Source: a virus
Strand: one strand, 5' to 3'
IMG/VR virus record: IMGVR_UViG_3300046516_000571
Span: 1 to 41,750 of that record
DNA length: 41,750 nt
The notes beneath the pieces were generated by a model. The model was not told where the DNA came from and did not search any database. It saw nothing but the letters and a program-made list of their open reading frames with translations. Made by a program: the position numbers and the translations under genes. Of this stretch, positions 1 to 41,750 are shown piece after piece (position 1 is the first letter of the stretch; each line of letters opens with the position of its first letter).

Positions 1-127
1 GGTTCCGCATTGGGATTGCGGCCCGCTTCGACGACCCGGACTCGATAGGTCGAACCGCCCGCTTGTTACGACCCGGCTACGGTCGGACACCCGCTAAGTT
101 CACCCGGCGACGGTTAGCCCCACTTCG
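1..127. repeat. Terminal direct repeat, left copy
   Basis: Identical to 41624-41750 over all 127 bases. The coat-protein start at 41616 and the scaffold stop at 183 become adjacent when the two copies are merged, which restores the usual scaffold-coat order. A length of exactly 127 equals a common assembler k-mer size, so this is probably an assembly overlap of a circular molecule and not a physical terminal repeat. Confidence 0.95.
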
Positions 128-182: not shown

Positions 183-1070
183 CTAGTAGCGCACTGAGCC
201 GCCGGCACCGTTCGGCCGCTTGCGGTTTTGGATCGGGTTGAGCACGTCCTCGAGGCTCGGCTCGCCGGACCATGCCCCCGCGGTGCGTCCTGCGACGCTG
301 CGTGCGGTGCCGAGGCTTGGCTGCATCCCGGCGGCGGGTGAGGGGAGGGGCGCCGGCTTGGCTTCCTGCTCCCACTGTGCGCGGCCCTCGGCCAGTATCT
401 TCTCGCGGTATGCGGCCGGATCGTCCCCGACATCGCGCACCAGGCGCAGCCGGTCGACCTCGCGCGTCAGCCACGCGTAGGGATGCGGCTGGCTGTAGAG
501 CTTGCCGAACAGCGTCGGGTCCGCGTTGGCAAGCGAGCGGAACTCCTGCACGTACTCGTTCAGCTTCTCCGCCCCGATCTTATCGCTCAACATCATTTCG
601 CTGTTGTTGAGCCGCTCGTTGAGCAGCGCCGCCTGCTGCTGCTGGACGACGTGCTGTGCCCACGCCTGCGGGTTGGTGGCCGGATCGGGCGGCGGCTGTG
701 GTGGCGCCTGTGGCTGTGGTGGCGGGGCGGTCGCGCGGCGCTGGGCGTCCTCGAACTGGCGCTGCAGCTCCTTGTGCTTGGTCTCGGCCTCGACCGCACG
801 CGCTTTCCAATCCTGGCGGCGCTGGCGCTCGCGTTCAAGCACTTGCTGCGGAATGTAGCTCTTGCCGTCCTGCTCAAGACGATCGGACGGCTCCGCATCG
901 GCCTCGTCCTCGGGCTCGGGCTTAGCTGTGGCGGGCTTGGCGGCCGGCTCGGGCTTTGCCTCGGGCTTAGGCGCCGGCGCCTCTGGCGCTGCCTGTGGGG
1001 CCTCCGGCGGGGCTTCGGTGACGGTCGCGGTTTCGCCCTTGAGGAACGACTCTAGCTGTTCGTTAGCCAT
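183..1070 (-). CDS. Putative capsid scaffolding protein
   Basis: A 295-residue, acidic and low-complexity protein. Residues 15-60 are a Pro/Ala/Glu/Lys-rich tract. Residues 70-115 form a charged coiled-coil region, then comes a Pro/Gln-rich linker, and the C-terminal half is helical and ends in a short basic tail. This composition is typical of phage scaffolds that fill the procapsid and are later released. Position supports the call: across the contig join the next gene downstream is the major coat protein, and the portal and terminase lie upstream in the same late operon. No protease motif is visible. The assignment rests on composition and order, not on a conserved motif. Confidence 0.7.
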   Translation of the reverse strand: MANEQLESFLKGETATVTEAPPEAPQAAPEAPAPKPEAKPEPAAKPATAKPEPEDEADAEPSDRLEQDGKSYIPQQVLERERQRRQDWKARAVEAETKHKELQRQFEDAQRRATAPPPQPQAPPQPPPDPATNPQAWAQHVVQQQQAALLNERLNNSEMMLSDKIGAEKLNEYVQEFRSLANADPTLFGKLYSQPHPYAWLTREVDRLRLVRDVGDDPAAYREKILAEGRAQWEQEAKPAPLPSPAAGMQPSLGTARSVAGRTAGAWSGEPSLEDVLNPIQNRKRPNGAGGSVRY

Positions 1071-3852: not shown

Positions 3853-4347
3853 CTATTTCGGCTGTGCGTGTGGCGGCAGCGGCATGCCAGGACGCAGCGA
3901 TGGATCCACGGCAATGAACCGCCATCCCAGCGCCGGGCAGTAGCACAGCATCCAGTACGTCTTGCTGGGCAGCGCGTTGTCGATCTGCCCGCCCTGTCCC
4001 CCTGGCAGTGTGTTGTCGGGTCGCTCGCCGCCAGGCATCGGCCCACCGCCAGGATGCCCGGGCTGCACCGGTAGCCCCGCATCGATGTGCGGCGGACGGC
4101 CAGGACTGGGCCAGATCGTCCCTGGCGCAACTGGCAACGTGTTGTCGATGATCGGCGCAATGGGATTGCCGATGGTCGGCGGCGGCCAGATACCAGGCGG
4201 CGGCTCAGGTAACGAATTGTCGATCCCAGGCTGCAAACCTGGCAGCGAATTGTCGATCTGCCCACCCCCAGGCAACTCATTGCTCGGGTAATTGCTCCCG
4301 ACGCTATCGAGCGTCAGAGCCCCGCCAGTGACTTTGAATGTCGGCAT
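3853..4347 (-). CDS. Pro/Gly-rich repeat protein with IDNxLP motifs
   Basis: A 164-residue protein. It starts MPTFKVTGGALTLDSV, then carries five copies of (I/P)DN(S/T/A)LP separated by Pro/Gly-rich linkers with PGIWPPP and PGTIWPSP, and ends in a compact Cys/Trp-containing block (YWMLCYCPALGWRFIAVDP) with a Pro tail. Similar low-complexity proteins with D-N-x-L-P repeats occur in alphaproteobacterial phages; no function is known. The start is set by GGAGACATCTG just before the ATG, a leader shared with the next gene upstream. Confidence 0.65.
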   Translation of the reverse strand: MPTFKVTGGALTLDSVGSNYPSNELPGGGQIDNSLPGLQPGIDNSLPEPPPGIWPPPTIGNPIAPIIDNTLPVAPGTIWPSPGRPPHIDAGLPVQPGHPGGGPMPGGERPDNTLPGGQGGQIDNALPSKTYWMLCYCPALGWRFIAVDPSLRPGMPLPPHAQPK

Positions 4348-4379
4348 CAGATGTCTCCGTGTGTTGATGCGTATGATGT

Positions 4380-4601
4380 TCAGACGCGCGGCGAACCATC
4401 CGGGTTGCGGGTAATGGCGATGTTCGCCCACATCGCGCAGTCCCGTAGTTGTCGCATCGCGTAGGTCTTGTCCGGCCCATCCGGAATATGTGCGTCGATG
4501 GCGGCGGCGAACTCAGCAAAGGCGCCGCGCACGTAGCTCATCGCGTCCAGTTGCTCTTCGCTAGGTTTCAGATATTCAAACGCGGACGTGTGCAGCGTCA
4601 T
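4380..4601 (-). CDS. Acb2/Tad1-hairpin-like protein (candidate cyclic-nucleotide sponge)
   Basis: A 73-residue, almost fully helical protein with two long helices. The core EEQLDAMSYVRGAFAEFAAA, then IPDGPDKTYAMRQLRD and CAMWANIAITRN matches, as I recall it, the Acb2/Tad1 hairpin family. Members bind cyclic di- and trinucleotides and gcADPR-type signals, blocking CBASS and Thoeris immunity. The RQLRxxAMWAN..ITR end is the most characteristic part. It sits in the late accessory block next to the PEP-CTERM gene and has a GGAGACATCTG leader. The family call is strong by eye; ligand and defence target are inference. Confidence 0.65.
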   Translation of the reverse strand: MTLHTSAFEYLKPSEEQLDAMSYVRGAFAEFAAAIDAHIPDGPDKTYAMRQLRDCAMWANIAITRNPDGSPRV

Positions 4602-4672: not shown

Positions 4673-5323
4673 TTACGTATGGCGCCTCCGCTGCGCGACC
4701 ATGCCGAGCCCCAGCAACCCCACCCCGAGCAGCGCCAGCGTGGCCGGCTCCGGCACGGCCTCCGTGGTCGCGCTGGCCACGCCCGAATACGAGGCGGTGA
4801 AGCTGGCAAGGGTAGCGTTGTCGAGGCTGAGCGCCGGGAGGACGTTGGACAGCGACAGGGTGAACGAGGAAGGCGCCACCAGATCGGCCGCCGCAATCAC
4901 ACCCGAGGTGAGCGCGAGGGTGTCGGGCGGCGACGCGACGTTGATGGACAGTTGCTCACCAGTCGCCAATCCAAACGCCGCATCCGAGAAGGTGCCCGAG
5001 AGGAAGTTGGTGCCGAGACCGCCCGCGAGGCTGGTGATCGCGAATGTCCCGCTGTAGTGCTGGAGCAAAGCCGGCCCGACACCCACCGCCGCGTCAATCG
5101 AGGATGCGTTGAGGTCGAGGAAGCCCGACGTGGGCGCGTTCCCGAACAGTTGCGTGATGCTGATCGCCGTATCGGTGCTGAGCGCCGTTGCAGTGCCGGC
5201 GCCGTTGGCGGTGGCCGTCAGCGTATTGGAGCCGGATACCTGGCCGAACGCGATAATTTGCGTGGCGTGAGCAGAGAACGAGAGGCAGATCGAGGCGATA
5301 CCGGCGAGCAGTGCGGTGCGCAT
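4673..5323 (-). CDS. Secreted protein with PEP-CTERM sorting signal
   Basis: A 216-residue protein. It begins with a Sec signal peptide (MRTALLAGIASICLSFSAHA, probable cleavage after AHA), has a Ser/Thr/Ala-rich beta-strand body, and ends at residues 190-216 with VPEPATLALLG, a hydrophobic helix and an RRR cluster. This is the tripartite PEP-CTERM signal that host exosortase recognises and cleaves in exopolysaccharide-producing bacteria. The phage has no exosortase, so the host must supply it. It lies between a beta-helix gene and the Acb2-like gene in the late strand. Its role is unknown; it could alter the infected or lysogenic cell surface. Confidence 0.85.
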   Translation of the reverse strand: MRTALLAGIASICLSFSAHATQIIAFGQVSGSNTLTATANGAGTATALSTDTAISITQLFGNAPTSGFLDLNASSIDAAVGVGPALLQHYSGTFAITSLAGGLGTNFLSGTFSDAAFGLATGEQLSINVASPPDTLALTSGVIAAADLVAPSSFTLSLSNVLPALSLDNATLASFTASYSGVASATTEAVPEPATLALLGVGLLGLGMVAQRRRHT

Positions 5324-5341
5324 GGCGTGAAGCTTCCCTGG

Positions 5342-6451
5342 TTACGTTGGTTGTGGCGTCCATAGATCGCCTGGGACGTGCGTCAGGATGGTGGTGCTGG
5401 TGACCTCGGTGATGATCGCCGTCAGCGCCGTCGGGCTGCTCCACACCTGCGGGTGGCCTGCCGCGTAGCCCTGGAAGTCCGTCACCTCCATCGCGTGATA
5501 CTGGTCGAGCGTCAGTGCAGGAGGCGGCGGTGGGGGCGTTGGTGGTGGTGCTGGCGGTGTGATCGTGCCGGGGTTCGCGAACGTCATGGCGCTGGTGTCG
5601 AGGCTCGGCCGGCTGGCCAGCAGCACAGTGTCACCGGTCGCGGGCAGCCCCCACACGCTGTTGCCGCTCAGCGCCGGCTGCGTTGCGGAGTCGAGCAGGA
5701 AGCGGCCGGACGGATCGTCGTTGACCACGGTGTTGCCGGTGATCGCGAAGTCGGTGCCGGCGTTGCTGGCGCCCTCCTCGCCGTAGGCCACGATGAACGG
5801 GTTCTGGGTGTTCGGCCCCTGCTCTATCGTGTTGCCGCTGATCGTGGCGTTGCCGCCGTTGGGCAGGTCGATCGAGTAGCTGGCGCTGCCGTTGTTGTCG
5901 AAGATGCGGTTGCCGGTGATGGTGTTGCTGGCGGCGCGGCTCTTTACTTCGTGTCCGACGATCGCGTCGTGGATGTAGGAGTTCGTGAGGCTAAAATTCG
6001 CAATCGCGCCGAGGTAGATGTTATGTGTCGAGCCGCTGCCATCGCCATTGGCAGCAAACTCCGAGTGGTCAATGCCGATTGAACCGTTTGGGTCTGCCGC
6101 GCCGAGCAGTCCTTCCTGGTTGTCGTGGAAGTAGTCGTCCTTGAGCGAGAGGCTGCCGCCCTCGTAGCGGATCGCAGCGCCATTTCGATCCGGTACAGCC
6201 ACCCCGCTAATGTCGAACCCATTGATCGCGACATTGGCGCCACTCTCCGTGATCATCGCCTTGCCGTCGGGCGGGCTGATGGTCTCCCGCAGCAGCACCT
6301 CGCCGCCCACCGCCTGCAGCGTGATCGAGGTGCCAATGCTCAGGAACTGGTCGACGTATGTCCCCGCCTGCACGTCAATCGTGTCACCGGATGCCGCGGC
6401 GTTGATCGCGTCCTGAATGCTCTGGCCGACGCCGACGGTGACAGTTGCCAT
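5342..6451 (-). CDS. Parallel beta-helix protein (NosD/pectate-lyase-like repeats)
   Basis: A 369-residue protein. The start (VGQSIQDAINAAASGDTIDV then AGTY) is the classical opening of right-handed beta-helix proteins, followed by coils with GFDISG, NTITGNRIFDNN, ATISGNTIEQG and FAITGNTVVNDD. A Pro-rich hinge (residues ~296-312) leads to a C-terminal domain with LDQYHAMEVTDFQGYAAGHP. There is no signal peptide. It may be a capsid decoration, an extra receptor-binding or depolymerase part, or an accessory enzyme; a catalytic site cannot be assigned by eye. It lies far from the two tail-spike genes. A GAGG ribosome site precedes the ATG. Confidence 0.75.
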   Translation of the reverse strand: MATVTVGVGQSIQDAINAAASGDTIDVQAGTYVDQFLSIGTSITLQAVGGEVLLRETISPPDGKAMITESGANVAINGFDISGVAVPDRNGAAIRYEGGSLSLKDDYFHDNQEGLLGAADPNGSIGIDHSEFAANGDGSGSTHNIYLGAIANFSLTNSYIHDAIVGHEVKSRAASNTITGNRIFDNNGSASYSIDLPNGGNATISGNTIEQGPNTQNPFIVAYGEEGASNAGTDFAITGNTVVNDDPSGRFLLDSATQPALSGNSVWGLPATGDTVLLASRPSLDTSAMTFANPGTITPPAPPPTPPPPPPALTLDQYHAMEVTDFQGYAAGHPQVWSSPTALTAIITEVTSTTILTHVPGDLWTPQPT

Positions 6452-6569: not shown

Positions 6570-6641
6570 TCAGGTGACAGCCGTGATCAGCAGCACGACC
6601 AGCGCCAGCACCATGATCCCAAGCAGCGCCCCGTGGCTCAC
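6570..6641 (-). CDS. 23-residue membrane peptide
   Basis: A very short gene starting at a GTG that forms a GTGA overlap with the methyltransferase stop. The product is a short polar N-terminus (SHGALLG) and one hydrophobic helix (IMVLALVVLLITAVT) up to the stop. The exact translational coupling and a transmembrane helix of realistic length make it credible. Role unknown; it could be a small lysis or membrane-stress peptide. Confidence 0.5.
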   Translation of the reverse strand: MSHGALLGIMVLALVVLLITAVT

Positions 6642-7945
6642 TCCGCAGCCTCCGGTATCCCGCGCGGCATGAAACCGCGCCCATTGTTCTCGTTCCAACG
6701 GTTCCCGTCGTGCCGCGGCGTCGTCTGCGCCTTGGACAGCCGCTGGTATTCGTCCCCCGCGAATAGGTCAGCCATACGCTCGTCCTCAGGATCACCGGCG
6801 GGCGGCAGGTCAGCGAACAGCGGCGCATCGTCCCGGCAGCGCTGCATAGCCATCTCCGTGTAGGCGGTGTTCAGCTCGATCCCGATCGCATCACGTTGCA
6901 GCCGGTCCGCCACGAGGAGCGTGGTGCCAGCGCCAGCGAAAGGGTCGAGGACCGTGCAGGGCACCACATCGGCATTGTGGTCGCAGCCTGCGCGCCCGCC
7001 GGTGGTAGTGACTGTCGGAGAACGGTTGCCGTCGTGGCTGTTGCCGCCACCGATCGCCTGCAAGCTGGCGGCTTGTCGTGCAATCTCACCAGGTGTCAGC
7101 GCCATCGATAACCCAAGCCGCTCGCGTTTCTCCCTGACAGTCTCAGTTTCCGTCACCCGCACCCACGGCTTGCCGCACCGGCTGCAACAGCCGCGCTCCG
7201 ACGTGCCAGCCTTGATGCAGCGCTCGGCCAGCGCAGGCGGGAACGTTGCGAAGTGCGCCTCGCTGTACGGCGCCGTGGCGATCGTCCAGACATTGCGTAA
7301 GTTGCGCGTGCCGTTCGTCTCCCGAAATCCGCGAGGAGCCTGCAACGACAGCTTCCCGCTATTTGGCGCATCACCTGTGAAAGCGTAGTTGTAGCGGCTC
7401 GCACTCTCGGGAACGCCGTCCTCCCGCACCGCATCGGCATCGTAATAATACCGCGCGCTCTTGGTGAGCAGGAACACATGCTCATGGGCTGACGTGGGAC
7501 GGTCGGTGATGCTCTCCGGCATCGGGTTCGGCTTGTGCCAAATAATGTCCGACCGCAGCCACCACCCATCCGCCTGCAACGCCAAGGCAAGGCGCGCCGG
7601 CATCATCAGCAGTTGCTTGGGCGCCAAACCGCCATTGCCTACCTTGGGCGATGCGTGTCCGTTATGCCCTCGGGTCGGTGTCCAGCCGCTGCCTTGGTTG
7701 GCGTTGTAGCTATCCCCCATATTGACCCAGCACGTCCCATCGGGGCGCAGCACGCGCTTCACCTCACGAAACACCGCAACCATCGTGGCCAGATACTCGT
7801 CGGGCGTCGGCTCCAGCCCGATCTGCCCAGCGCAGCCGTAATCCCGCAGCCCGTAATACGGAGGCGAGGTCACCACGCACTGGACGCTGTCGGCCGGCAA
7901 CGTGGCGAGGACATCACGGCAATCACCCGCCAACAGCCGGATCAC
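6638..7945 (-). CDS. DNA N4/N6 methyltransferase (beta-type order)
   Basis: A 435-residue site-specific DNA methyltransferase. The catalytic motif IV TSPPYYGLRDYG is near residue 28 and the AdoMet motif I DPFAGAGTT is near residue 335, so the order is catalytic first, as in the beta class. Between them is a target-recognition region with a CSRCGKPW zinc-like knuckle. A long C-terminal extension (~60 residues) follows the last motif. SPPY is compatible with N4-cytosine or N6-adenine methylation. GTG at 7945 forms GTGA with the upstream stop; GTG at 7948 is one codon earlier. It may protect phage DNA from restriction or alter GcrA-type promoter control. No partner endonuclease is adjacent. Confidence 0.9.
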   Translation of the reverse strand: MIRLLAGDCRDVLATLPADSVQCVVTSPPYYGLRDYGCAGQIGLEPTPDEYLATMVAVFREVKRVLRPDGTCWVNMGDSYNANQGSGWTPTRGHNGHASPKVGNGGLAPKQLLMMPARLALALQADGWWLRSDIIWHKPNPMPESITDRPTSAHEHVFLLTKSARYYYDADAVREDGVPESASRYNYAFTGDAPNSGKLSLQAPRGFRETNGTRNLRNVWTIATAPYSEAHFATFPPALAERCIKAGTSERGCCSRCGKPWVRVTETETVREKRERLGLSMALTPGEIARQAASLQAIGGGNSHDGNRSPTVTTTGGRAGCDHNADVVPCTVLDPFAGAGTTLLVADRLQRDAIGIELNTAYTEMAMQRCRDDAPLFADLPPAGDPEDERMADLFAGDEYQRLSKAQTTPRHDGNRWNENNGRGFMPRGIPEAAE

Positions 7946-8124
7946 CACGGTCCCCGCCAGCCGCCGATGCCCGAGAACAGCAGCAGCACGATCAGCAGGA
8001 TGACCACCAGCCCGACGCCGCCATACATGCCGGGGCCGTAGTAGCCGCCGCGGTAGCCGTAGTAGCCGCCGCCCAGACCTCCGAACAGGATCAGCACGAC
8101 GAGGATGATCAGCACGAGGCTCAT
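7942..8124 (-). CDS. Small two-span Gly/Tyr-rich membrane protein
   Basis: A 60-residue protein: hydrophobic helix (MSLVLIILVVLILFGG), a Gly/Tyr/Arg loop (GGGYYGYRGGYYGPGMYGG), and a second helix (VGLVVILLIVLLLFSG). This resembles DUF3309-type small proteins found in alphaproteobacteria and their phages, which lack a known role. It is coupled by ATGA to the portal stop and by GTGA to the methyltransferase. It could contribute to membrane permeabilisation, though the loop is unlike known holins. Confidence 0.7.
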   Translation of the reverse strand: MSLVLIILVVLILFGGLGGGYYGYRGGYYGPGMYGGVGLVVILLIVLLLFSGIGGWRGPW

Positions 8125-10340
8125 GGCGCGCTCCCCGGCGGTTGTGGCTGTGGAATCGGCGTGCGGAGCAATCTGTTCGTGGTGATGGCCGTCTGGTGCG
8201 TCTGGTGCGCGGTGTGCAGCGTTTGCTGTGCGGCTTGCGGTATCTTGGCCGCGGTCAGCAGCGTATCAGCGCGCGTCTTGCTGATGTCGGCGGCCTTCTT
8301 CTGCAGATCGGCCATGTGGTGAGCCATCGCCATCTCGGGCGTCATCTGCTCAGGGTCCAACGGCTGCTGCATCGGCTGTGACGCGCCAGGCGGGTTGTCG
8401 GGAGCCACATGCGGCTGCCCGTAGGGTGGGGCGCTGAACTCGCCATGCACGGAATGCACATTGGCCGCGGCGTTGACCTTGCGCTCCTGCGCCAGCGCCA
8501 TGTCCGCCTGCGCTTTCGCCTGTTTGCCCTGGATGTCCGCTTGCGCATGCTGCGTTGCGAGTTGCCCCGCCTGCTGCTGGGCCTGCTGCTGCTGCTGCTG
8601 GTGTTCCTTCATGCGCTCAAGGATCATGTCCTTGTCGCGCAGGCCGCTGGCCGCAATGAGCACGTCGCCCGGTATCAGCCCCGGCTGAACGCTGGCCAAC
8701 TGCACGAGGCTCTGGAACTCCTCGGCCTGCAGGCTTGGGATGTCGATGCCCTCCTCGATCGTGATGTCCACGTCGAGGTCGCTGATGTCGTTCTCGATGC
8801 CGATGACCTGCTGCAGCCGCGGATCACCAGGCTGTAGTGGCGGCTGCATCTGCTGCATCACCATGGCGCGGTGCTGTTCCGGCATATCCGCCAGCTTGTC
8901 CATCAGCCGCACCGGGCGATTGATCCCGACCCACCTCGTCTCGTTCATGTCGTCCGTCACTCTGACCCATTTGCCACCGCTCCAGAACTCCCGCGCCGCC
9001 ATCCAGCAGCTCTCGTAGACGCGCCTGCTCCAGAACCGCAGCGCGTCGGCCAATGGCTCATTCTGAGCTGCCCCACCCGCTTGCATCGCCAACACAGCGC
9101 GCCCGGACAGCTCGCGCGGATCAGTGCCGCTCATGGCCGCATTCGGGCCGGATAGCTGCATCTCGGCGGTGGCGTGCTGCAGCAACTGGAACTGGCCGGC
9201 GGCGAGGTCGGTGGTTTGCTGGATCTCGAACTTGAGGCCAGGCATCACTTCCACATATCCATCCGGCTTGGCCACCTCGCGCCTCGCCTTGTCCACATCC
9301 GGCACCGCGCCCTGCTCGGCGACCACTTGATGCACGTTGAGCAAGTGCATCGCCTTGGAACGGCGCTTGTTGATCTCGTCCTGCAGCGAGATCAGGCCCC
9401 TTACCATCCCGTAACGTTGATTTTCCCGGTTTATGTATGAGCTTTGCAGCAGCAGCCCTGAGCAGCTCTTGCCCTTACGGTCCTTGAACTTGGACTTCTG
9501 CGGCTTGGCCAACAGCCCGCTCTTGGTGTAGGTCGCGCGCCACCACATCCCACGCTCGGACCAGTCGCATTGGACAAGGCGCACACGCCGCCGGTTGTTA
9601 TCGGTCCAGAACGCGGTTTCCGGTCTGTCGTTGTAGTAGAAGTCGGTGCTACTGAAGCTGCTCTCGATCACATCGTCGGCGTCGGGGTACATCTCCTCGA
9701 GCGCATCGCGGTCGGTCCAGATAACCATGCCCTTGTAGCGCGCATCGCTGAAGTCCAGCGATCGGCTGTGCGGATCGTACCAGACGCGATCCCAGGGAAT
9801 GTGCGTCATCGTCACGTTGCAGCTTCCCTGGCCGTCATCCTCAAGGCCCAGGTCAACGCCACCGGCGCCTTCCGTCAGCATGTTCTCGAACACCAGACTG
9901 CGCAGTAGCGAGAACGAGTTGTCGTCTGCGATGTAGCGCAAGCACTGCGTCGCCGCATCGGCGCGGTCTTCCTCGGCCGGCGTGCGGGCAAATGCCTTGG
10001 GATCGGTGCGCGCCTTGCGCTCCATGCCGCAGAGCAGCTCCAGCTTATCCTTGATCTTGTTGATCGTAATGATCGGCTGGCCGCGCTCGTTCAGTATCTT
10101 GCGCTCATCCCTGGTGTATTGGTCGTGGTCAACGTAGTCGCGATCGCGCTGCGCCAGACTGATCTCGTCTTGGCGCGCCAGTTCGCTCTCCTCGAACCAG
10201 CGGATCAGGCGGGCGTGGAGGTCGTCCAGATCCTTCGGGTACGCATCGGGATCGCCGCCCGTCAGGTCACGGATCGCCGGCGGTGTATCGGGTCCGCGGT
10301 CGCCGGTATGGACGTGGAGATGGATTGCGGTATCGCTCAT
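8121..10340 (-). CDS. Portal protein, P22-like
   Basis: A 739-residue protein of P22 gp1 size. The N-terminal half has a helical start (RLIRWFEESELARQDE), then QPIITINKIKDKLELLCGMERKAR, the ITINKI stretch being a hallmark of the P22-type portal. The middle has IPWDRVWYDPHSR and YINRENQRYGMVRGLISLQD, where linked strands form the ring core. The C-terminal 170 residues are Gln/Ala-rich helices (QQQQQAQQQAG) that would form a long barrel entering the capsid. It forms the dodecameric DNA entry vertex and docks the terminase. Between terL and the portal lie five small genes and the ART-like gene. The start lacks a strong ribosome site. Confidence 0.92.
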   Translation of the reverse strand: MSDTAIHLHVHTGDRGPDTPPAIRDLTGGDPDAYPKDLDDLHARLIRWFEESELARQDEISLAQRDRDYVDHDQYTRDERKILNERGQPIITINKIKDKLELLCGMERKARTDPKAFARTPAEEDRADAATQCLRYIADDNSFSLLRSLVFENMLTEGAGGVDLGLEDDGQGSCNVTMTHIPWDRVWYDPHSRSLDFSDARYKGMVIWTDRDALEEMYPDADDVIESSFSSTDFYYNDRPETAFWTDNNRRRVRLVQCDWSERGMWWRATYTKSGLLAKPQKSKFKDRKGKSCSGLLLQSSYINRENQRYGMVRGLISLQDEINKRRSKAMHLLNVHQVVAEQGAVPDVDKARREVAKPDGYVEVMPGLKFEIQQTTDLAAGQFQLLQHATAEMQLSGPNAAMSGTDPRELSGRAVLAMQAGGAAQNEPLADALRFWSRRVYESCWMAAREFWSGGKWVRVTDDMNETRWVGINRPVRLMDKLADMPEQHRAMVMQQMQPPLQPGDPRLQQVIGIENDISDLDVDITIEEGIDIPSLQAEEFQSLVQLASVQPGLIPGDVLIAASGLRDKDMILERMKEHQQQQQQAQQQAGQLATQHAQADIQGKQAKAQADMALAQERKVNAAANVHSVHGEFSAPPYGQPHVAPDNPPGASQPMQQPLDPEQMTPEMAMAHHMADLQKKAADISKTRADTLLTAAKIPQAAQQTLHTAHQTHQTAITTNRLLRTPIPQPQPPGSAP

Positions 10341-10705: not shown

Positions 10706-11481
10706 CGAGGCTTGGGTTTAACCGCCACTGATGGGTCGTGAAGAATGATCGTGTCGCCCATTGGCACCATTCGATCGCCTAGGCGATCCTTCAGATCTCC
10801 GAACGACACATGGACACCGGGAAACCCAGCCTTCTTCGCCTCGCTTAGCGCGTCTTTGTAGTAGTTGTCGGCGTCGAGCGCATCGTAAACGCTGCCGTCG
10901 TAATAGTCGTTAATATGCTGCTGGGCGTTGTCATAGCCTTGGTCTTTCGCCCACGCTTCCAACTCGGCCTTGGCGTCTTTCTGGAGCAATGGCGCATCTA
11001 TCTGGAACTCATGGACGTTGTCGCCATAGTGCGCTGCATGCTGGCGGTCGGTTGTCAGGTAGTATTCATCGGCATGCGACGTGCCTGGTGCCCACCGATC
11101 GGCCATAGCTCCTGAACCAACCTTGGCAGCATCGAAAGCGTCAAAGTCGTCCAGGCTGCCATGAAATGCCCGGATGCTGGGTGCTGTGCTGCCCATCAGC
11201 AGCGCACTACCATATTTCTGCGCTGCGTCCACCGCTCCAACCTGCGTCGGCAGGCCGGTGTCGGGATCGAGCAGACCCTGGCGCGTGCTCTCGGCGCGCT
11301 GGTCCTGCAGCCACTGCCACGCCTGCTGGCCCGCTGCTGCCACGCCTGCGCCCTGGCTCGTGTCGGGCGGCGGCGCGGCGTAGTTGAGCATCGGCGGGCC
11401 GAGGCCGTTGGGCTGGCCCACGGGGCTGTTGGGCTGCCACAGCCACGGCATGTTCGGTGGGGCTAAGCCGTTGTCGGGCAT
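10702..11481 (-). CDS. ADP-ribosyltransferase-like (ART-PolyVal type) virion-linked protein
   Basis: A 259-residue protein. Residues 1-100 are Pro/Gly/Gln-rich with no clear fold (WLWQPNSPVGQPNG). Residues 103-255 look like an ART fold of the polyvalent-protein type: IRAFHGS (H107), a DFDAFDAAKVGSG loop, YYLTTDRQHAAHYG, then VHVSFGDL and a final GDTIILHD strand. In known ARTs the His, a Ser/Tyr strand and a late Glu/Gln form the site; the third residue is not certain here. Phage ARTs such as T4 Alt are packaged and modify host RNA polymerase or other proteins on entry. Its place beside the portal suggests packaging. Target is inference. Confidence 0.6.
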   Translation of the reverse strand: MPDNGLAPPNMPWLWQPNSPVGQPNGLGPPMLNYAAPPPDTSQGAGVAAAGQQAWQWLQDQRAESTRQGLLDPDTGLPTQVGAVDAAQKYGSALLMGSTAPSIRAFHGSLDDFDAFDAAKVGSGAMADRWAPGTSHADEYYLTTDRQHAAHYGDNVHEFQIDAPLLQKDAKAELEAWAKDQGYDNAQQHINDYYDGSVYDALDADNYYKDALSEAKKAGFPGVHVSFGDLKDRLGDRMVPMGDTIILHDPSVAVKPKPR

Positions 11482-11996: not shown

Positions 11997-12280
11997 CGCA
12001 TCCGTCCGTGAAGTATCAGCCTGACCTTATCCGCGCTGTGCATAAATCGGAGTTCCCCAGACGGGCCGTGATCAGACGCATCGATGCCGCACTGGCATTT
12101 CACGCTCCCGAGGTAGCCTCGCGGATTTTTCTCTGGGATCAATACAAACCACCGGGTTTTACAGCCGCTGCATTCAAGTTCGATTATGCGCGGATCGGCC
12201 TGACACTGGAACCGTGGGTCAACGCGATATGGGCGGTGCAGTATGCCAGGAGGGCCGCTCAGCGTGGTGGTGTCAGTCAC
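11993..12280 (-). CDS. Hypothetical zinc-ribbon-like 95-residue protein
   Basis: The GTG at 12280 forms GTGA with the upstream stop. The middle has ELECSGCKTRWFVLIPE and VKCQCGIDASDH, giving CxxC and CxC pairs likely to bind zinc. The ends are polar. No named family; possibly an adaptor to nucleic acid. The N-terminal TDTTT segment repeats that of the next gene. Confidence 0.6.
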   Translation of the reverse strand: MTDTTTLSGPPGILHRPYRVDPRFQCQADPRIIELECSGCKTRWFVLIPEKNPRGYLGSVKCQCGIDASDHGPSGELRFMHSADKVRLILHGRMR

Positions 12281-12555
12281 TTGCCGCCTCCGGTCGTGGC
12301 TACGTTCCAACGGCGTTGGTATTCCTCGTACATGCGGCGGTTGCGCTCCTCCTCTGCCGCTCGCTCAGGACTAGCCAACCATGCTTGGTGTTCCGCCCGG
12401 AGCCTCGCGCGGCGTGCGGCCATGGATGCCCTGCGTTTTGCAATGACCTCAGGTGCGGTCTTGGGATCGTAATGCCGCTTGGCCTCGGTCAGGCGTTGCG
12501 TGGCCGCCCTGTATGCCGCGAGCGCTGCCTCGTATTCCTGTCGCTCGGCGCCCAT
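12277..12555 (-). CDS. Basic coiled-coil 92-residue protein
   Basis: Begins MGAERQEYEAALAAYRAATQ at an ATG that shares a base with the terL stop (TGATG). It is a long, highly charged helix rich in Arg, Glu and Ala with many Arg residues (KRRASMAARRARLRAEH). It might bind DNA or act in head assembly. A longer frame to 12615 runs into terL and is not needed. Confidence 0.6.
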   Translation of the reverse strand: MGAERQEYEAALAAYRAATQRLTEAKRHYDPKTAPEVIAKRRASMAARRARLRAEHQAWLASPERAAEEERNRRMYEEYQRRWNVATTGGGK

Positions 12556-14006
12556 CAAGCTACGCGCCAGCTTTCCACTGTGCTCTGCGATGCGCGGGCG
12601 AAGGCGCGGTCCCACGAGTCCTCGGGCGGCTTCGACGCCAGCTCGCGCACGAACGGCCGCGACATACAGGCGTATCTACAACTGTCCGGGGCGTGGTCCT
12701 CCATGTCGCTATCCACGTCCTCTGGCCGCGCATCGTCGTGCTGCAGCGCCGGCAGCGTGCGGATCAGATCGCGGGATGTCGAGAACATCAGCATCATCGG
12801 CCTGCCATCGGCATCGCCATCGAGCCGTGCGCGCACCTGATCCCAGCCGCCCATAGCGCCACGGCCTGCGACGCGCTTGTTGTCCGCTGGCCGGAAGATG
12901 ACGCCGCCGCCCATCATGCGGTGCGCGATGCTCGGGCCGCCGTCCTCAGCGAACATCGCAGGATCAGCGACGCCGGCCATGGGCTGCGGGTCGTCGGCCT
13001 CGCGGCTCTTGATGCCGGCGGCGATGGCCTCGGCCGTCATGCGCAGTCCCACGTTGGGTTCGCCAGGTTTCATGCCGTACCATTCTCGGTAGTTGACGAG
13101 GCATCCTCGGGCGATGCTGGCGATACTACCATCCGATACGGCCCACCAGTGGCACGCAAACGGCCGTGCAGATCCCCAATCGAAGGAACGGAAGCGAGGC
13201 CAGTGATCGGGCAATGCGCGTGGTGCGATGACGTGTCGGGACATTTCGAACTCTGGGAAGAAGGCCCCAGAAACAACCGACCAATCCCCCTCAAGCCATG
13301 CTCGGACCAGTTCAGGTGACCCTGATGCCCGCAATCTCTGCACGTAATCTGGACCGAGATAGACGTTATCGCTAACTCGCGATGGTATGTAGATACGCTC
13401 GAGTCCGCTGCCATCAGTGAGCACCTGCCATCCCATTGGCGCTGGGTCAATGTAGCGAGCGCGCACCCACTGATGACCAGGACCACCTGGGTTGCCGGTG
13501 AGCCGCATTGCAACCGGAACACCAGCACCACTACGCAACGTTGCCATGAGCTTCATGATGGGAACAGGCGATGGGAAGTTGCCGCATTCCTCTATGTATA
13601 CACGAGTGTAGCTATGGCCCTGATATTGCTCTGCGTCTGCATCACGTTCGAGATATGCGAATGTAAGGCGTGCGCCGTTGGGCATCGTAGCGCGCATTGG
13701 GTTGTTGGTGAGTTGCGCTCCTAACTTTGTATATACGATGCGCGCACGTTCGAAAGTTTCCAGTAGTTCTATGCGAGTTCTGCGGATCATGAGGCCGATG
13801 GCGTCGGCGCGGTATTCATCTGCGTGCAGCGCCCAATCGCCCAACACCGCATCGGTTTTGCCACCACCGCGCGCACCACCGAAGAAGCATTCAAATATCG
13901 GGCAATCTATGAATGCTGACTGCGGCCCTTTTTGCGGTTCCCAGGCTATCAGTCGTCCGTCGTCAGTAGTCGCCTGCTGTCGGAGGGTGCGTGCATTTTG
14001 AGCCAT
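12555..14006 (-). CDS. terL: Terminase large subunit
   Basis: A 483-residue packaging motor. Walker A GGARGGGKT is at residues 43-51 and Walker B VYIEE at 136-140, with LTGNPGG (residues 169-175) as the likely coupling motif. The nuclease domain starts near FDWG (D276), with VADPAMF further on supplying another acidic residue. The organisation fits Terminase_6/Terminase_3-type phage motors. It cuts and pumps DNA into the procapsid through the portal. It overlaps the small subunit gene by 58 bases in another frame and couples to the next gene by TGATG. Packaging mode (headful or cos) cannot be read from the sequence. Confidence 0.95.
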   Translation of the reverse strand: MAQNARTLRQQATTDDGRLIAWEPQKGPQSAFIDCPIFECFFGGARGGGKTDAVLGDWALHADEYRADAIGLMIRRTRIELLETFERARIVYTKLGAQLTNNPMRATMPNGARLTFAYLERDADAEQYQGHSYTRVYIEECGNFPSPVPIMKLMATLRSGAGVPVAMRLTGNPGGPGHQWVRARYIDPAPMGWQVLTDGSGLERIYIPSRVSDNVYLGPDYVQRLRASGSPELVRAWLEGDWSVVSGAFFPEFEMSRHVIAPRALPDHWPRFRSFDWGSARPFACHWWAVSDGSIASIARGCLVNYREWYGMKPGEPNVGLRMTAEAIAAGIKSREADDPQPMAGVADPAMFAEDGGPSIAHRMMGGGVIFRPADNKRVAGRGAMGGWDQVRARLDGDADGRPMMLMFSTSRDLIRTLPALQHDDARPEDVDSDMEDHAPDSCRYACMSRPFVRELASKPPEDSWDRAFARASQSTVESWRVA

Positions 14007-14290
14007 TCATCAGCGCTCTCGGTGGGCGTTGGTGCGCGGAGCACGTAGCTGTGCATCATGTCGAGGGCGCCCTCAACAGTGACGGTTGGCTTGCCCCAGC
14101 CGCGATCGAGCAACGCAACAGCGGCGGCGACGCAGTGTTTGTCCGAGCGCATGGCATTGACGAGCGTGGCGATTGCCTCGGACGTGTGCTCACGAGCGAT
14201 TGCCTCGATGCCCTTGGCGCGTCCGGCGGGATTGCCGGATTGGCCTTTCTGGAACGGCCTGCCGACGACGCCATTAGGTCCGGCTGGCAT
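13949..14290 (-). CDS. terS: Terminase small subunit
   Basis: A 113-residue protein. The opening GRPFQKGQSGNPAGRAKG is the basic motif found at the start of many alphaproteobacterial phage small terminases or their DUF5681-like relatives. It is followed by a helical region (IAREHTSEAIATLVNAMRS) and an acidic C-terminus. It would recognise phage DNA and start packaging with the large subunit. It is the first gene of the late operon, just left of the divergent plus cassette; the 123-base gap holds a strong plus promoter but no convincing minus one. Confidence 0.75.
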   Translation of the reverse strand: MPAGPNGVVGRPFQKGQSGNPAGRAKGIEAIAREHTSEAIATLVNAMRSDKHCVAAAVALLDRGWGKPTVTVEGALDMMHSYVLRAPTPTESADEWLKMHAPSDSRRLLTTDD

Positions 14291-14349
14291 ACTGCATCCG
14301 CGCTGCTCTGAGCATCACGACAATTCCCATCCACACACGCAGATAGTTG

Positions 14350-14378
14350 TTGACGCCAATCCACACCTATGGTTATAT
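14350..14378 (+). promoter_or_regulatory. Sigma70-type promoter for the plus cassette
   Basis: TTGACG (14350-14355), a spacer of exactly 17 bases, then TTATAT (14373-14378). It is the best -35/-10 pair found in the window and drives the 14414-15224 genes. The CCACA...TGTGG inverted repeat (14361-14382) surrounds the -10 and could be an operator. Confidence 0.7.
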
Positions 14379-14413
14379 GTGGTCATCGAAACCGGCAACA
14401 AGGAGTTCCGCCG

Positions 14414-14641
14414 ATGTCCGCTTCCACCTTCACTCTCTCGATCGAGCCCACCAATGCCGCTGCTTTCCAGCACGGCTACCACCTCGGGACTGACGAGGCT
14501 GTTGCTCGCAGCATCGCCGTAGAGCGTTTCACCGGGCGCAACGCCTATGGCCTCCACACCCGCACGGTTGCGCTGATCCGCGACGGTCGCATCTTCGACG
14601 TGTTCGATGGGGCTTGGTCCTCCACCGTTGTGGGGGGCTGA
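14414..14641 (+). CDS. Hypothetical 75-residue protein
   Basis: Starts MSASTFTLSIEPTNAAAFQHG, with AAGGAG spaced 9 bases upstream. The body has EAVARSIAVERFTGRN and VALIRDGRIFDVFDG, a likely alpha/beta mini-domain. It is the first gene after the strong promoter at 14350 and should be expressed early or constitutively. No known family. Confidence 0.65.
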   Translation: MSASTFTLSIEPTNAAAFQHGYHLGTDEAVARSIAVERFTGRNAYGLHTRTVALIRDGRIFDVFDGAWSSTVVGG

Positions 14642-14644
14642 GCG

Positions 14645-14866
14645 ATGACCGACACTGAGAACGAGGCGTTCCGCGAACTGGTCTACATCGCGAAAGACAT
14701 ATGCCGCACAATGGCGTTGAACCCTGATCGGACGGCACGGCAGATCGCTGGCGACATCAACGATCCGGAGGATGAGTTGGCTCGGTTTGCTCGTGCGATC
14801 GAGGCGGCTGGCAAGCTGGTCTATCCGGCATGGGCCCATCGCCATGCTGACGAGGTGCAGTCGTGA
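14645..14866 (+). CDS. Hypothetical 73-residue helical protein
   Basis: A helical acidic protein (MTDTENEAFRELVYIAKDIC, then PRTARQIAG-like and DELARFARAIEAAGK segments). It follows 3 bases after the preceding stop and overlaps the next gene by GTGA. No function recognised. Confidence 0.65.
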   Translation: MTDTENEAFRELVYIAKDICRTMALNPDRTARQIAGDINDPEDELARFARAIEAAGKLVYPAWAHRHADEVQS

Positions 14867-15018
14867 GCGAGACGACGACCAATCCCCGCATCACGATCTA
14901 CATTCCGCCGCTACTCGACTCACGCATCAGGGTGGCTGCAGCGGCTGCTGGGCAGTCGCTGAGCGTGTGGCTGCAGCGAGCGGCTGAGGCGGCGCTGCGT
15001 GAGCAGGAGCGCGAGTGA
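14863..15018 (+). CDS. Ribbon-helix-helix (Arc-type) DNA-binding protein
   Basis: A 51-residue protein from GTG at 14863 (GTGA overlap). NPRITIYIPPLLDSRIRVAA followed by GQSLSVWLQRAAEAAL is a textbook ribbon-helix-helix: a beta strand with alternating residues, helix A, a G-x-S turn, helix B. Such dimers act as repressors or as antitoxins. It may regulate its own promoter at 14350 or the late start on the other side. No toxin-like partner is evident in the next gene. Confidence 0.75.
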   Translation: MSETTTNPRITIYIPPLLDSRIRVAAAAAGQSLSVWLQRAAEAALREQERE

Positions 15019-15224
15019 TGCCGGAACCGTCGCTGGCGCTGCTGCAGACGCTGATCGAGCGGCTGATCGTTGAGCAGCGTCAGGTGGTGGATCGGCTGGA
15101 GCGGGTAGAGCGCGCGCTGTTGGCGGGGCAGCGATTGTTGCTGGATAGGACGGAGACTGACACGGACATTCAGCATGCGCTGGATGCGATTACGCGCCGG
15201 GTTGAGGCGTTGGAGGCTGGGTAG
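15018..15224 (+). CDS. Coiled-coil 68-residue protein
   Basis: Starts at an ATG sharing a base with the RHH stop (TGATG). LLQTLIERLIVEQRQVVDRL and ERVERALLAGQRLLLDR show heptad spacing of Leu/Val, a coiled coil, with a second helix near the C-terminus. It ends 2 bases before the end of the NusG-like gene on the other strand. Function unknown. Confidence 0.65.
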   Translation: MPEPSLALLQTLIERLIVEQRQVVDRLERVERALLAGQRLLLDRTETDTDIQHALDAITRRVEALEAG

Positions 15225-15226
15225 CT

Positions 15227-15823
15227 TCATTCTCTCGCCACGAGATTTGCCACATCGACCGAGAGGCGTCTCAGGAACCCCTTGTCGCCCAACATTATGG
15301 CGAGGATGGCTCTTTTGCCCCTGATCTCGACGATGACCCCCTTAAGCCCGGCGAAATGCCATGATGCGGGGGCTGCGAGGTCACCTACGCGCCACGGAGC
15401 GTCTGGGGCGTCTCTCGGTGCGGCCAGAGCCTGTGCGGCCTCCAGCGCCTCCACAGCGCCCGCGTTGGCCCATTGGATCTGATCGCGGGTTTTCAGCACG
15501 GAGCGGACGCCTTGGGTCTCGTAGATGGGGCGCCAGCTATCGCGGCTGTCGTGGTGGACGAACAGGTATCCCGGCCAGAGTGGAGCGATGACGATGCGGG
15601 TGAGGGTTCGGAGGACTGGATCGCGCCGTTTCGTGGCGTAGCGTGGGAGGAAGACGCGATAGCCGCGGCGTTGCAGGTTGCTGTCGGCCCAGGTTTCGGC
15701 TTGTGGGTGGGTGACTGCGACGATCCAGCCGGAGCGCGGGGAATTGCAGTCGCACCGGTCGACAATCTGGTCCGATCGGCTGTCGGTATCTACGCGTGTG
15801 CTCACGGATGCGTCAAGCGGCAT
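15227..15823 (-). CDS. NusG/RfaH-like transcription elongation factor
   Basis: A 198-residue protein. After a polar 30-residue tail, SGWIVAVTHPQAETWADSNL starts the NGN domain (residues ~32-115), including RGYRVFLPRY and LWPGYLFVHH, the usual NGN core strands that bind RNA polymerase. A KOW-like domain follows (WRVGDLAAP, FAGLKGVIVEIRGKRAIL). Specialised NusG paralogues (RfaH, LoaP) suppress termination in particular operons. The gene is last in the early leftward operon and upstream of terS on the same strand, the position of lambda Q. A role as late-gene antiterminator is inference. The ATG at 15823 is chosen because it fits the 11-base overlap; longer frames run into the neighbour. Confidence 0.85.
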   Translation of the reverse strand: MPLDASVSTRVDTDSRSDQIVDRCDCNSPRSGWIVAVTHPQAETWADSNLQRRGYRVFLPRYATKRRDPVLRTLTRIVIAPLWPGYLFVHHDSRDSWRPIYETQGVRSVLKTRDQIQWANAGAVEALEAAQALAAPRDAPDAPWRVGDLAAPASWHFAGLKGVIVEIRGKRAILAIMLGDKGFLRRLSVDVANLVARE

Positions 15824-16070
15824 CGGGGCCGCCCCCGTAGGCGTCGGTGGGGAGTGGCGGGATTTCGGAGACGTATTGGCGCAGGTGAATGTGGGCGCCG
15901 GCGACCAGCCCATCGCGCTGGTGCAGCGGGAAGTGTCCGATGAATTCAGCGAGTGTTGCAATGAGTTCGGGGATGACGATGGCGTCGAGTTCGCCCTGGC
16001 AGGCGGCGGTGAGGCGGGCTGCGAGGGCGTCTGCTCGTTCGTCGTCCCAGACGGGGTGGGTGGCTGGCAT
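15813..16070 (-). CDS. Hypothetical 85-residue protein
   Basis: MPATHPVWDDERADALAARL, then ACQGELDAIVIPELIATLAE and a His-containing helix. Starts with a TGATG join to the preceding gene. Helical and acidic; no family. It lies between the replication genes and the NusG-like gene. Confidence 0.6.
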   Translation of the reverse strand: MPATHPVWDDERADALAARLTAACQGELDAIVIPELIATLAEFIGHFPLHQRDGLVAGAHIHLRQYVSEIPPLPTDAYGGGPDAA

Positions 16071-30617: not shown

Positions 30618-30968
30618 TCAATCCTCCAGTTCAAGGTCGTGGTGCGCGGCAACCGCGGGCTCGTCCGCCTCGAGGTGGTCCGCGTTGTGGATGCATGCCA
30701 GTACAACGCCCGGCGTGAGCGTCAGGAAACTGTGCATGATGTGTGCTGGTATGCGGATCGTCGCCGGCGCGCAGTATTCGGTCGGCCCATCGTCATCGCC
30801 CTCTCGCCACAACCGAACGCGGCCTTGCAGCAGGGCCGTGAGATGAGGAAATGAATGTGCATGTTGGGGTAACAACGTGTCGGCGTCGGGGACGCGATAG
30901 ACTTTCATGTAGATGCCAGCGTAGATACTGACGCTGATCGTCTCGGGCTGGTTGGGCGCGCGCTTCAT
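30618..30968 (-). CDS. Cupin-fold protein
   Basis: A 116-residue single-domain cupin. LPQHAHSFPHLTALLQGRVR (H36, H38 and H42) forms the first metal-binding strand pair, and IRIPAHIMHSFLTLTPGVVL (H76 or H79) the second; spacing fits the two-motif cupin barrel. It may bind metal and a small ligand, or be a structural part. ATG at 30968 forms ATGA with the hydroxylase stop. Placed between the hydroxylase and the ejection genes, it may be virion-linked. Function unknown. Confidence 0.75.
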   Translation of the reverse strand: MKRAPNQPETISVSIYAGIYMKVYRVPDADTLLPQHAHSFPHLTALLQGRVRLWREGDDDGPTEYCAPATIRIPAHIMHSFLTLTPGVVLACIHNADHLEADEPAVAAHHDLELED

Positions 30969-31510
30969 TCGCATCTCATGCTCACGATGCAGATAATCCT
31001 GTCCACAGCGCCATCGTTGGTGATTGAGTGAATGCGCAGGTTGTCAAACGTCCAGATGGTCCCGGTGTCGAATCGCTGCACCGCTTCGCAGCAATGCACC
31101 AGCGCTGTGCCAGCCAACGTCAGATGCGCCTTGCAGTTGTAGTATTCCGGTGCCCAGCTTCCCGCGTCAGTATGCGGCAGGATATCAGCCCCCGGCGGCA
31201 ACTTAGTGAGCAGGATGCTGCCAAGCTCCACACAGGCCACACGGTTCATCAGCGCAAAGATCAGCGGTCGCAGCGATGGCAACTCATACCATGCAGGCCA
31301 GAACACGTTGCGATGCTCCAGCCGTCGCGCCTCGAGCCCGGTCAGGTGCGCCTCGGGCATGTAGCGCACGGTGATGTCGGTCATCGCCGCGTGGGGAGTT
31401 CCGGGATACAGCCGTCGCTCCGGATTACGATCCCAGAGGTGTGACGCGCGGTTCAGCTCCAGCAAAACCGGAACCGTGTCGACGCCAGAGGCCAATTGCA
31501 CGAACCGCAT
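30965..31510 (-). CDS. 2-oxoglutarate/Fe(II) oxygenase, Asp/Asn beta-hydroxylase-like
   Basis: A 181-residue protein. LTKLPPGADILPHTDAGSWA supplies the HxD pair (H113, D115) and LRIHSITNDGAVDRIICIVS the distal His (H161) and the Arg (R171) that would hold 2-oxoglutarate. This order is that of the aspartyl/asparaginyl beta-hydroxylase branch. It would hydroxylate a protein side chain or other substrate using oxygen and iron; substrate unknown. The ATG at 31510 joins the upstream stop as TGATG. It is embedded in tail and ejection genes, so a phage structural protein may be the target. Confidence 0.75.
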   Translation of the reverse strand: MRFVQLASGVDTVPVLLELNRASHLWDRNPERRLYPGTPHAAMTDITVRYMPEAHLTGLEARRLEHRNVFWPAWYELPSLRPLIFALMNRVACVELGSILLTKLPPGADILPHTDAGSWAPEYYNCKAHLTLAGTALVHCCEAVQRFDTGTIWTFDNLRIHSITNDGAVDRIICIVSMRCE

Positions 31511-32040
31511 CAGCGAACTCGCCTTGCCCGAATGGTCCCCGATGCCGTCACCGTGCCGCTGAAGCTCGCCAGCGCCACCAGCCACACGGTCACCGTCGCT
31601 GTCCCGTTATAGCGCCGTGTCGAGGTGGAGATGCCCTGCGTGATCGCCCCAGCCGGGAACGTGCCCATCGTCTGCGTGTCGAGGCTATCGATGCCCGCGG
31701 CGAACAGTGTGTGCGTACCGGCGCCGGCACTGAATGCCACATTGCCGGACACGTCAAAGTCACCCGCCGTGAGGTCGAGCGACACGATGTTGCTCGCCAC
31801 GTTGCTCGTCAGGCCAATGCCGCTGGCTGTCGCGGTGAGGTATTCCCCGATCTGACCTGCTGTCGCATCCGAACCGTCCGTCACGCCAGTGCGGACAGCC
31901 GCGCGCATGCCGTTGACCTGGTCCGCGACGCTCTGGTGATACTCGGTCCACGCCTGCGAATGCTGCTGACCCGAAGCAGCGTCAACGATCGGCTGATCAT
32001 AGAACGGCGGGTCTACGACCTTGGCTGTTGTTATCGCCAT
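31510..32040 (-). CDS. Putative structural protein with beta-rich C-terminus
   Basis: A 176-residue protein. The N-terminal part (DPPFYDQPIVDAASGQQHSQ) is followed by a helical linker and a beta-rich part (ASNIVSLDLTAGDFDVSGNV, RYNGTATVTVWLVALASF). The sequence SLDLTAGDFDVSGNVAF is a common motif in phage fibre and decoration proteins. It may sit on the tail or head. Between the gp10-like gene and the hydroxylase. Confidence 0.65.
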   Translation of the reverse strand: MAITTAKVVDPPFYDQPIVDAASGQQHSQAWTEYHQSVADQVNGMRAAVRTGVTDGSDATAGQIGEYLTATASGIGLTSNVASNIVSLDLTAGDFDVSGNVAFSAGAGTHTLFAAGIDSLDTQTMGTFPAGAITQGISTSTRRYNGTATVTVWLVALASFSGTVTASGTIRARRVR

Positions 32041-40500: not shown

Positions 40501-41616
40501 CTATGCGTCAGCGACCGCTGCGCTCCACACCGTCATGACCCCATTGTCTACAGGTTTGGTCGTGTCCACCGTTGGATCGGTGCCGAAGCGCAGCTTGGCC
40601 ACGCCGCGGATTTCCTCAACGCCAACGCCGTTCATGAAGCCATAGTCACGAGTGTTGGTGATCACTTTGGTGCGCTGTGCCCAGGCGATACCGAGAGCCT
40701 GCGCGCCGCAGAGGTAGGACGCACCGCAGTCGATCGTGGAGCCGCCGGGATCACCGGTGTGCAGGACCGGCAACTCGGGGATTTCGCGGATGATGACCCC
40801 GTCATAAATCAGATCACCAGCCGTGAATAACGGATTGTCGCTGCCCCGGTTCCATGCGTATTGCAGTGCGTTGATGATGACCGGGTCTAGCATCAGGTCG
40901 CGGAACACGAGGGACGGTACGAAGAGCACGTACCACTCCTCGTCGTTGCTTATTCGGATGGGTCGGATCTTCGGCGTTGCGGTGCGTGCCAGCCGCTTTG
41001 CGAGGGTGATCTGCGCGGCGGTCATCTTGTCGGCCGCATTGTCGACGGTCGCCAATGCAGTTGCATATACACCGCTGACCGCGTTGGCCTTGCTGATCCC
41101 GAACAGCACCCGGTCGGCGTTGTTGACCAGCCAGGTATTGCGTTGGGCAGCGGAGGCTGCGGCGTAGGTGAGTTGCACATTGCCGTCTGCCGTGATCGCT
41201 CCGAGCGACGAGATGATGTCAGTCCTGAGCTTATTCGCCGCCCAGTTCTTCAGGACGCTCCTGCCAGCTTGCAGCAGATCGATGACGCTCTTCTGCTCGT
41301 CCCAGTCTGACACCGCCACGGCATGGCGAATGACGCTGACCACGACGTTAAGTGATCTGGCATTTAGTATTTCTTCATTGCCCTCTAGGACCGTGTTGCC
41401 GCTAACGCCGGCTCCGACCAGATTACGCACGGTGGGGAAGACAACAGTATCGCCTGGTTTGCGCGTAAGATCAGTCTGCAACTGTATCATGGCATCCATA
41501 GTGGTGCCGAAATACGGTGTGAACTGGTTTTCTCGGAGGAACTCTACCCAGAAGTCACTTTGCCATTGTATTGGGGTTAAGCCCGGTCTTGCCGGGGTGA
41601 GGATCATGTCAGCCAT
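40501..41616 (-). CDS. Major coat protein (N4-gp56 family)
   Basis: A 371-residue protein. VGAGVSGNTVLEGNEE (near residues 67-82) then SVIRHAVAVSDWDEQKSVID is the N4-gp56 family signature; LQAGRSVLKNWAANKLRTDI and RFGTDPTVDTTKPVDNG fill the HK97-fold core and the end. It forms the icosahedral shell around the scaffold. It is the next late gene after the scaffold once the circle is closed, with the hairpin array between. ATG 41616 lacks a clear ribosome site. Confidence 0.92.
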   Translation of the reverse strand: MADMILTPARPGLTPIQWQSDFWVEFLRENQFTPYFGTTMDAMIQLQTDLTRKPGDTVVFPTVRNLVGAGVSGNTVLEGNEEILNARSLNVVVSVIRHAVAVSDWDEQKSVIDLLQAGRSVLKNWAANKLRTDIISSLGAITADGNVQLTYAAASAAQRNTWLVNNADRVLFGISKANAVSGVYATALATVDNAADKMTAAQITLAKRLARTATPKIRPIRISNDEEWYVLFVPSLVFRDLMLDPVIINALQYAWNRGSDNPLFTAGDLIYDGVIIREIPELPVLHTGDPGGSTIDCGASYLCGAQALGIAWAQRTKVITNTRDYGFMNGVGVEEIRGVAKLRFGTDPTVDTTKPVDNGVMTVWSAAVADA

Positions 41617-41623
41617 TGTTTGG

Positions 41624-41750
41624 GGTTCCGCATTGGGATTGCGGCCCGCTTCGACGACCCGGACTCGATAGGTCGAACCGCCCGCTTGTTACGACCCGGC
41701 TACGGTCGGACACCCGCTAAGTTCACCCGGCGACGGTTAGCCCCACTTCG
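41624..41750. repeat. Terminal direct repeat, right copy
   Basis: Exact copy of bases 1-127. It begins 8 bases upstream of the coat-gene start on the minus strand and includes the first part of the hairpin array, so those hairpins are counted twice in this window. Confidence 0.95.

Follow-up and report, generated by a model that had tools for sequence, protein, structure and literature searches.

A phage gene with a PEP-CTERM sorting signal

PEP-CTERM proteins are exported by the Sec pathway, cleaved by an exosortase near the PEP motif and set free at the outer surface or in the EPS. The sorting system is said to go back to Haft (2006) and is represented by the profiles PF07589 and TIGR02595. 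Why should a phage encode such a protein? The question is raised by a gene for 216 amino acids at positions 4673–5323, on the minus strand, of an IMG/VR soil phage with a P22-like head module; the whole stretch of 41 750 nucleotides that was analysed is referred to here as the window. These coordinates agree exactly with the original prediction, which had named no strand; the plus strand of the same interval holds an unrelated Arg-rich open frame. The predicted product begins with a Sec signal peptide, followed by an all-beta mature domain and, at its end, a PEP-CTERM tail. As read from the sequence, the N-terminus (MRTALLAGIASICLSFSAHA, continuing with TQ) has a charged n-region, a hydrophobic h-region and an AHA cleavage box, with predicted cleavage near the AHA/T junction after residue 21 (signal peptide codons at 5261–5323, minus strand), and signal peptides align at this place in the homologues. 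The C-terminus, ending in EAVPEPATLALLGVGLLGLGMVAQRRRHT, carries VPEP, a hydrophobic helix (residues 193–214) and an RRR cluster (codons at 4685–4759, minus strand; 33.6 bits). In profile searches this tail scored above the curated cut-offs of both PF07589 (29.6 bits, cut-off 20.7) and TIGR02595 (22.8 bits, cut-off 16), and a genome-wide scan returned it as the single PEP-CTERM signal of the record (E 2.7e-9). The complete tripartite signal that had been proposed for this protein was thus confirmed. The ribosome-binding region, AGGGAAGCTTCACG at 5326–5339 (minus strand), is the counterpart of an invariant leader, AGGGGCTTCACGTC, in sibling phages.

An alignment-based AlphaFold model (pLDDT 79, pTM 0.70) placed the all-beta mature domain apart from the C-terminal helix 193–214. 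In fold searches neither PDB nor BFVD yielded a match to the mature domain at E 1e-3, so that nothing indicates receptor binding; the top PDB match, a dirigent-type barrel, was weak (probability 0.72) and was not used. In its signal peptide, PEP motif, hydrophobic helix, basic end and scores above cut-off the protein resembles known members of the exosortase sorting system, from which it differs in being phage-encoded, in having a mature domain that falls into no named PEP-CTERM subfamily at cut-off, and in having no exosortase or EPS operon adjoining its gene.

Genomic context

The first 127 bp of the window (1–127, plus strand) are a direct terminal repeat identical to 41624–41750, and the record therefore represents a closed circular, complete genome of ∼41.6 kb. 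It contains portal, TerL, coat and head-closure genes, and the PEP-CTERM gene lies between such hallmark genes, so that its original description as a genuine phage gene holds. The minus-strand order runs from a NusG-like antiterminator through the small and large terminase genes and an ART-like gene to a P22-like portal, then through a DNA methylase, a beta-helix protein, the PEP-CTERM protein and a Pro-rich protein to a scaffold-like protein, followed by coat, tail and ejection genes across the circle. The accessory interval that holds the PEP-CTERM gene is bordered upstream by the portal (8121–10340, minus strand; PF16510, 384.6 bits) and downstream by the scaffold-like gene (183–1070, minus strand), named by its position between the portal and the coat gene, which follows next across the circle at 40501–41616. 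Within this interval lie the methylase (N6_N4_Mtase; 6638–7948, minus strand) and two recurring cassette neighbours of the PEP-CTERM gene, neither with an evident signal peptide: a right-handed beta-helix protein of 369 amino acids (5342–6451, minus strand; PF05048 31.0 bits, PF13229 29.6 bits), and a Pro-rich protein (3853–4431, minus strand) with xDNSLPG/PDQGLPG repeats and a conserved C-terminal YWxLCY..GWR...VDPSLRPG motif. Of 87 complete PEP-CTERM genes, 44 have a Pro-rich gene within 5 kb, a figure partly limited by contig ends, and conversely 35 of 53 Pro-rich genes have a PEP-CTERM homologue within 3 kb; among the other 18, L005, L183 and L192 carry one farther off (L-numbers denote the IMG/VR loci or contigs of the homologue scans described below). 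On these counts the Pro-rich gene was rejected as an obligate partner. In L026 (6451–6527) and L030 (7207–7283) a tRNA-Met (cat) gene is placed between the Pro-rich and PEP-CTERM genes; neither Rfam nor tRNA scanning found anything in the window itself.

The gap to the beta-helix gene upstream is only 18 bp and no promoter-like site was found in the portal-to-scaffold stretch, which is a weak test; the PEP-CTERM gene is therefore likely to be transcribed together with the head genes. The NusG-family protein (15227–15961, minus strand; PF02357, 39.9 bits; phrog_6386 antiterminator), whose gene lies upstream of those for the terminase, may act as antiterminator on a late operon that includes the PEP-CTERM gene. 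An aspartyl/asparaginyl beta-hydroxylase domain protein (30965–31585, minus strand; PF05118, 32.4 bits) is encoded among the tail and ejection genes. A C1-like HTH is present, and integrase/recombinase profile searches of the window gave no PF00589 or PF00239 match. As a tyrosine integrase was not found in 17 of the 18 records checked, lysogenic conversion is little supported. The gene resembles prophage morons and other lysogenic-conversion surface genes in being an accessory, exchangeable gene within a structural module, and differs from them in that the window has no integrase match and in its position on the head-gene strand, where no separate promoter was detected for it.

A PEP-CTERM family in uncultivated phages

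Scanning IMG/VR with the protein as query yielded 19 loci (43–100% identity) and with an alignment as query 80 loci, while a scan with the leader AGGGGCTTCACGTCATGAAA yielded 34 loci, every one leading into a gene of the same family. Among 87 complete distinct homologues, which include a few weaker matches borne mainly by the tail, 86 end in a PEP-CTERM-like tail under a pattern that admits xEP (L016, for instance, has VFEP); only L254, with VPGR at its end, departs from it. E192-P193 is invariant across 27 aligned homologues and P191 is present in >90%. This conservation decides whether the tail could have arisen fortuitously. An ORF of at least 60 amino acids ending in a PEP-helix-basic tail turned up in 6 of 200 copies of the window drawn from a first-order Markov model (∼3%), and taken alone the tail is only mildly improbable by chance; a chance origin is ruled out because it is conserved in 86 of the 87 homologues.

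The phages that carry the family have terminases of phrog_2, 38, 979 and 9, in some cases with contractile-tail or baseplate genes, and range from 40 to 65% in GC content. No relative was found in GTDB species genomes, either with the portal profile or with a PEP-CTERM profile, in scanning that works through exact conserved stretches and therefore shows only reasonably close relatives. By tblastn the PEP-CTERM protein was unmatched in INPHARED (50 697 records) and PLSDB, as were the Pro-rich and beta-helix proteins in INPHARED, and PHROGs held no family matching the PEP-CTERM protein. Judged from these searches, the PEP-CTERM family seems to be specific to viruses and is widespread among unrelated uncultivated phages. 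The trait had been called rare for a phage; this applies to isolated phages, as the INPHARED and PHROGs results indicate, but not to uncultivated ones. Searches of open-access full text turned up no account of PEP-CTERM proteins encoded by phages, and no experiment on how such a phage protein is exported or cleaved came to light. Additional PEP-CTERM proteins with unrelated mature domains, among them a recurrent IPVNTxCPDCVINP family, lie beside the first in L005 (8003–8725), L230 (8486–9412), L259 (8595–9377), L237 (8785–9507), L206 (2594–3355) and L018 (649–1380 and 1451–2110), the last having three PEP-CTERM proteins in tandem.

No exosortase was detected in 16 virus records (the window and 15 related ones), and the host enzyme would therefore be required. 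The dependence on host exosortase in the original prediction stands to this extent; an exosortase in the host itself, and the suggested alteration of outer envelope or extracellular matrix, remain predictions.

Among contigs spanning portal and scaffold, counted by hand, the gene occupies this place in 14 of the 15 whose portals are at least 79% identical to that of the window and in none of the 26 with portals of 60–77% (Fisher p 4e-10). It is near-fixed in one phage clade. The sole clade contig without it, L036, indicates that the gene is dispensable, and in L131 (portal 65%) it is located elsewhere, between terminase and portal. Within its stretch 12175–15551, L036 carries a mini-CRISPR array before the scaffold gene, and its record (G015) encodes a serine recombinase (37116–37520) that none of the other checked records showed.

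Mosaic structure and purifying selection

Different parts of the gene have diverged to very different extents. L035 and L046 share 91% of signal peptide nucleotides and 53% in the mature domain, while the window and L003 show the reverse (mature domain 90%, signal peptide 40%); at least four mature types occur on one leader with similar signal peptides. On these comparisons the signal peptide with its leader, the mature domain and the tail are segments with separate histories, brought together by mosaic exchange. Since signal peptides, leaders and tails are common to differing mature domains, and one mature type occurs on different signal peptides, both sorting signals are kept as modules. The tail has low dN/dS in most within-clade pairs (0.02/0.29 for L022–L035, 0.04/0.66 for L022–L029) and the mature domain, within types, a ratio of ∼0.1, values that show purifying selection on the tripartite signal. 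In three near-identical phages (L041 at 15015–15794, L038 and L039) an insertion of ∼50 residues lies inside the signal peptide, and start or export may differ there.

Mini-CRISPR arrays in sibling phages

Ten mini-CRISPR units with type I-E-like repeats, a period of 60–62 bp and spacers of ∼32 nt were found in L003 (10400–10485 and 17986–18132), L004 (4904 and 16796), L009 (132 and 9786, the latter just upstream of the PEP-CTERM gene), L029 (7846, just downstream of the PEP-CTERM gene), L036 (15426) and L129 (7801); L274 is listed with units at 8327 and 9622–9830. A further repeat scan revealed one repeat variant in 12 contigs and a three-spacer array in one phage. Eight of these ten spacers find matches among sibling phages of the group, and an A[A/T]G PAM flanks 25 of 31 distinct protospacer contexts (at least 24 nt), the remainder having ATC or AAA. 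Two protospacers lie in the window: one in the NusG-like gene (15668–15700; L003 spacer, one mismatch, PAM AAG) and one at the start of the ART-like gene (11422–11449; L004 spacer, 28/28, PAM ATG). No mini-CRISPR repeat of the sibling type was found in the window itself. The type I-E-like character of the arrays implies that the hosts possess a type I-E system. Virus-borne mini-arrays are already known (PMC6858448, PMC11656645), and those of the sibling phages seem to be a new bacterial case, unusual in how far the targeting is mutual.

Proposed role of the phage PEP-CTERM protein

Retention of the PEP motif across divergent phages argues that it is in use. We lean, with reserve, towards a reading in which the host exports the protein, its exosortase cuts it and the outer envelope or matrix displays it, with, as a hypothesis, a role in competition between phages. 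The gene would probably be transcribed along with the head genes, its product exported by the host Sec pathway and cleaved by host exosortase at or near the PEP motif, and the infected cell would show the cleaved protein in its outer envelope or exopolysaccharide. There the small beta domain would most probably alter the surface such that rival phages adsorb poorly, as might the phage's own progeny on meeting infected cells or debris, either by superinfection exclusion or by masking of receptor or matrix. Such recoating of the surface in phage competition fits best for three reasons: siblings exchange the domain, the gene lies in an accessory interval and siblings carry mutual spacers; several of their mini-CRISPR arrays lie in or adjoin the portal–scaffold interval.

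A precedent is Llp of T5, a small exported phage lipoprotein that excludes superinfection (PMC9586334). Superinfection-exclusion proteins such as Llp keep phages from adsorbing to infected cells and to the fragments of lysed ones, and are typically made early (PMC9586334). The likeness, a small phage protein exported (here by prediction) to the outer envelope, concerns only how the two would work, for Llp is a periplasmic lipoprotein acting on FhuA whereas the phage PEP-CTERM protein is predicted to take the host exosortase route. Against exclusion, the gene lies in an apparent late operon, unlike typical early exclusion genes. A broader and more tentative extension of the recoating hypothesis is an exchangeable display system in diverse soil phages, in which conserved leader, signal peptide and exosortase signal would frame interchangeable beta domains and host exosortase would place a phage-specific shield against competitors, giving exosortase-dependent superinfection exclusion beside interviral mini-CRISPR arrays.

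The main rival is a matrix or flocculation role, possible though doubtful in our estimation, in which the sorted protein would bind host exopolysaccharide and change flocculation or biofilm, aiding progeny release or transmission, perhaps jointly with the beta-helix and Pro-rich proteins. PepA is tied to exopolysaccharide binding to cells in flocs and when overexpressed binds EPS to cells (PMC9850573). Its family, NF033554, is the top-scoring named family for the phage protein (47.9 bits over residues 20–214), but the score is far below the cut-off of 80, so that the protein is not a member by that test, and is probably borne mostly by the tail. The Pro-rich and beta-helix genes do recur beside the PEP-CTERM gene, yet their products lack an evident signal peptide and 18 of the 53 Pro-rich loci have no PEP-CTERM homologue within 3 kb.

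It is unlikely that the protein is a plain inner-membrane or periplasmic anchored phage protein whose C-terminal helix is only an anchor, exosortase being uninvolved. Any signal peptide with a C-terminal helix and basic end would enter the membrane, and an exosortase-bearing host is unproven; but a mere anchor needs no PEP motif, and 86 of 87 homologues have retained the motif despite divergence of the gene, with the invariant E192-P193 and near-invariant P191 noted above.

We consider very improbable a minor virion protein on progeny particles that uses the tail for assembly at the membrane: the location between portal and scaffold in a presumed late operon would suit it, but virions assemble in the cytoplasm, from which the signal peptide would remove the protein, and sister phages with portals of 60–77% identity have no such gene between portal and scaffold. 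Bacteria that bear exosortase have PEP-CTERM genes in abundance, but a captured host gene carried as passive cargo or assembly contamination, with no phage function, is hardly credible given purifying selection and the lack of a bacterial copy in GTDB species genomes, and host-derived contamination was rejected on the complete circular genome and the single slot shared by 14 of 15 clade contigs.

Biological implications

If a family is this widespread in phages and no copy of it is detected in the sequenced genomes of species, phages would be making use of the exosortase pathway of their hosts. The family links phage biology with exopolysaccharide and with floc proteins, offers a sequence marker by which phages of hosts with exosortase can be recognized, and opens to test the remodelling or shielding of the cell surface by phages via protein sorting. 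The presence in phages of an address label for the bacterial outer surface or slime layer suggests that infected cells are recoated by the sorting enzyme of their own host.
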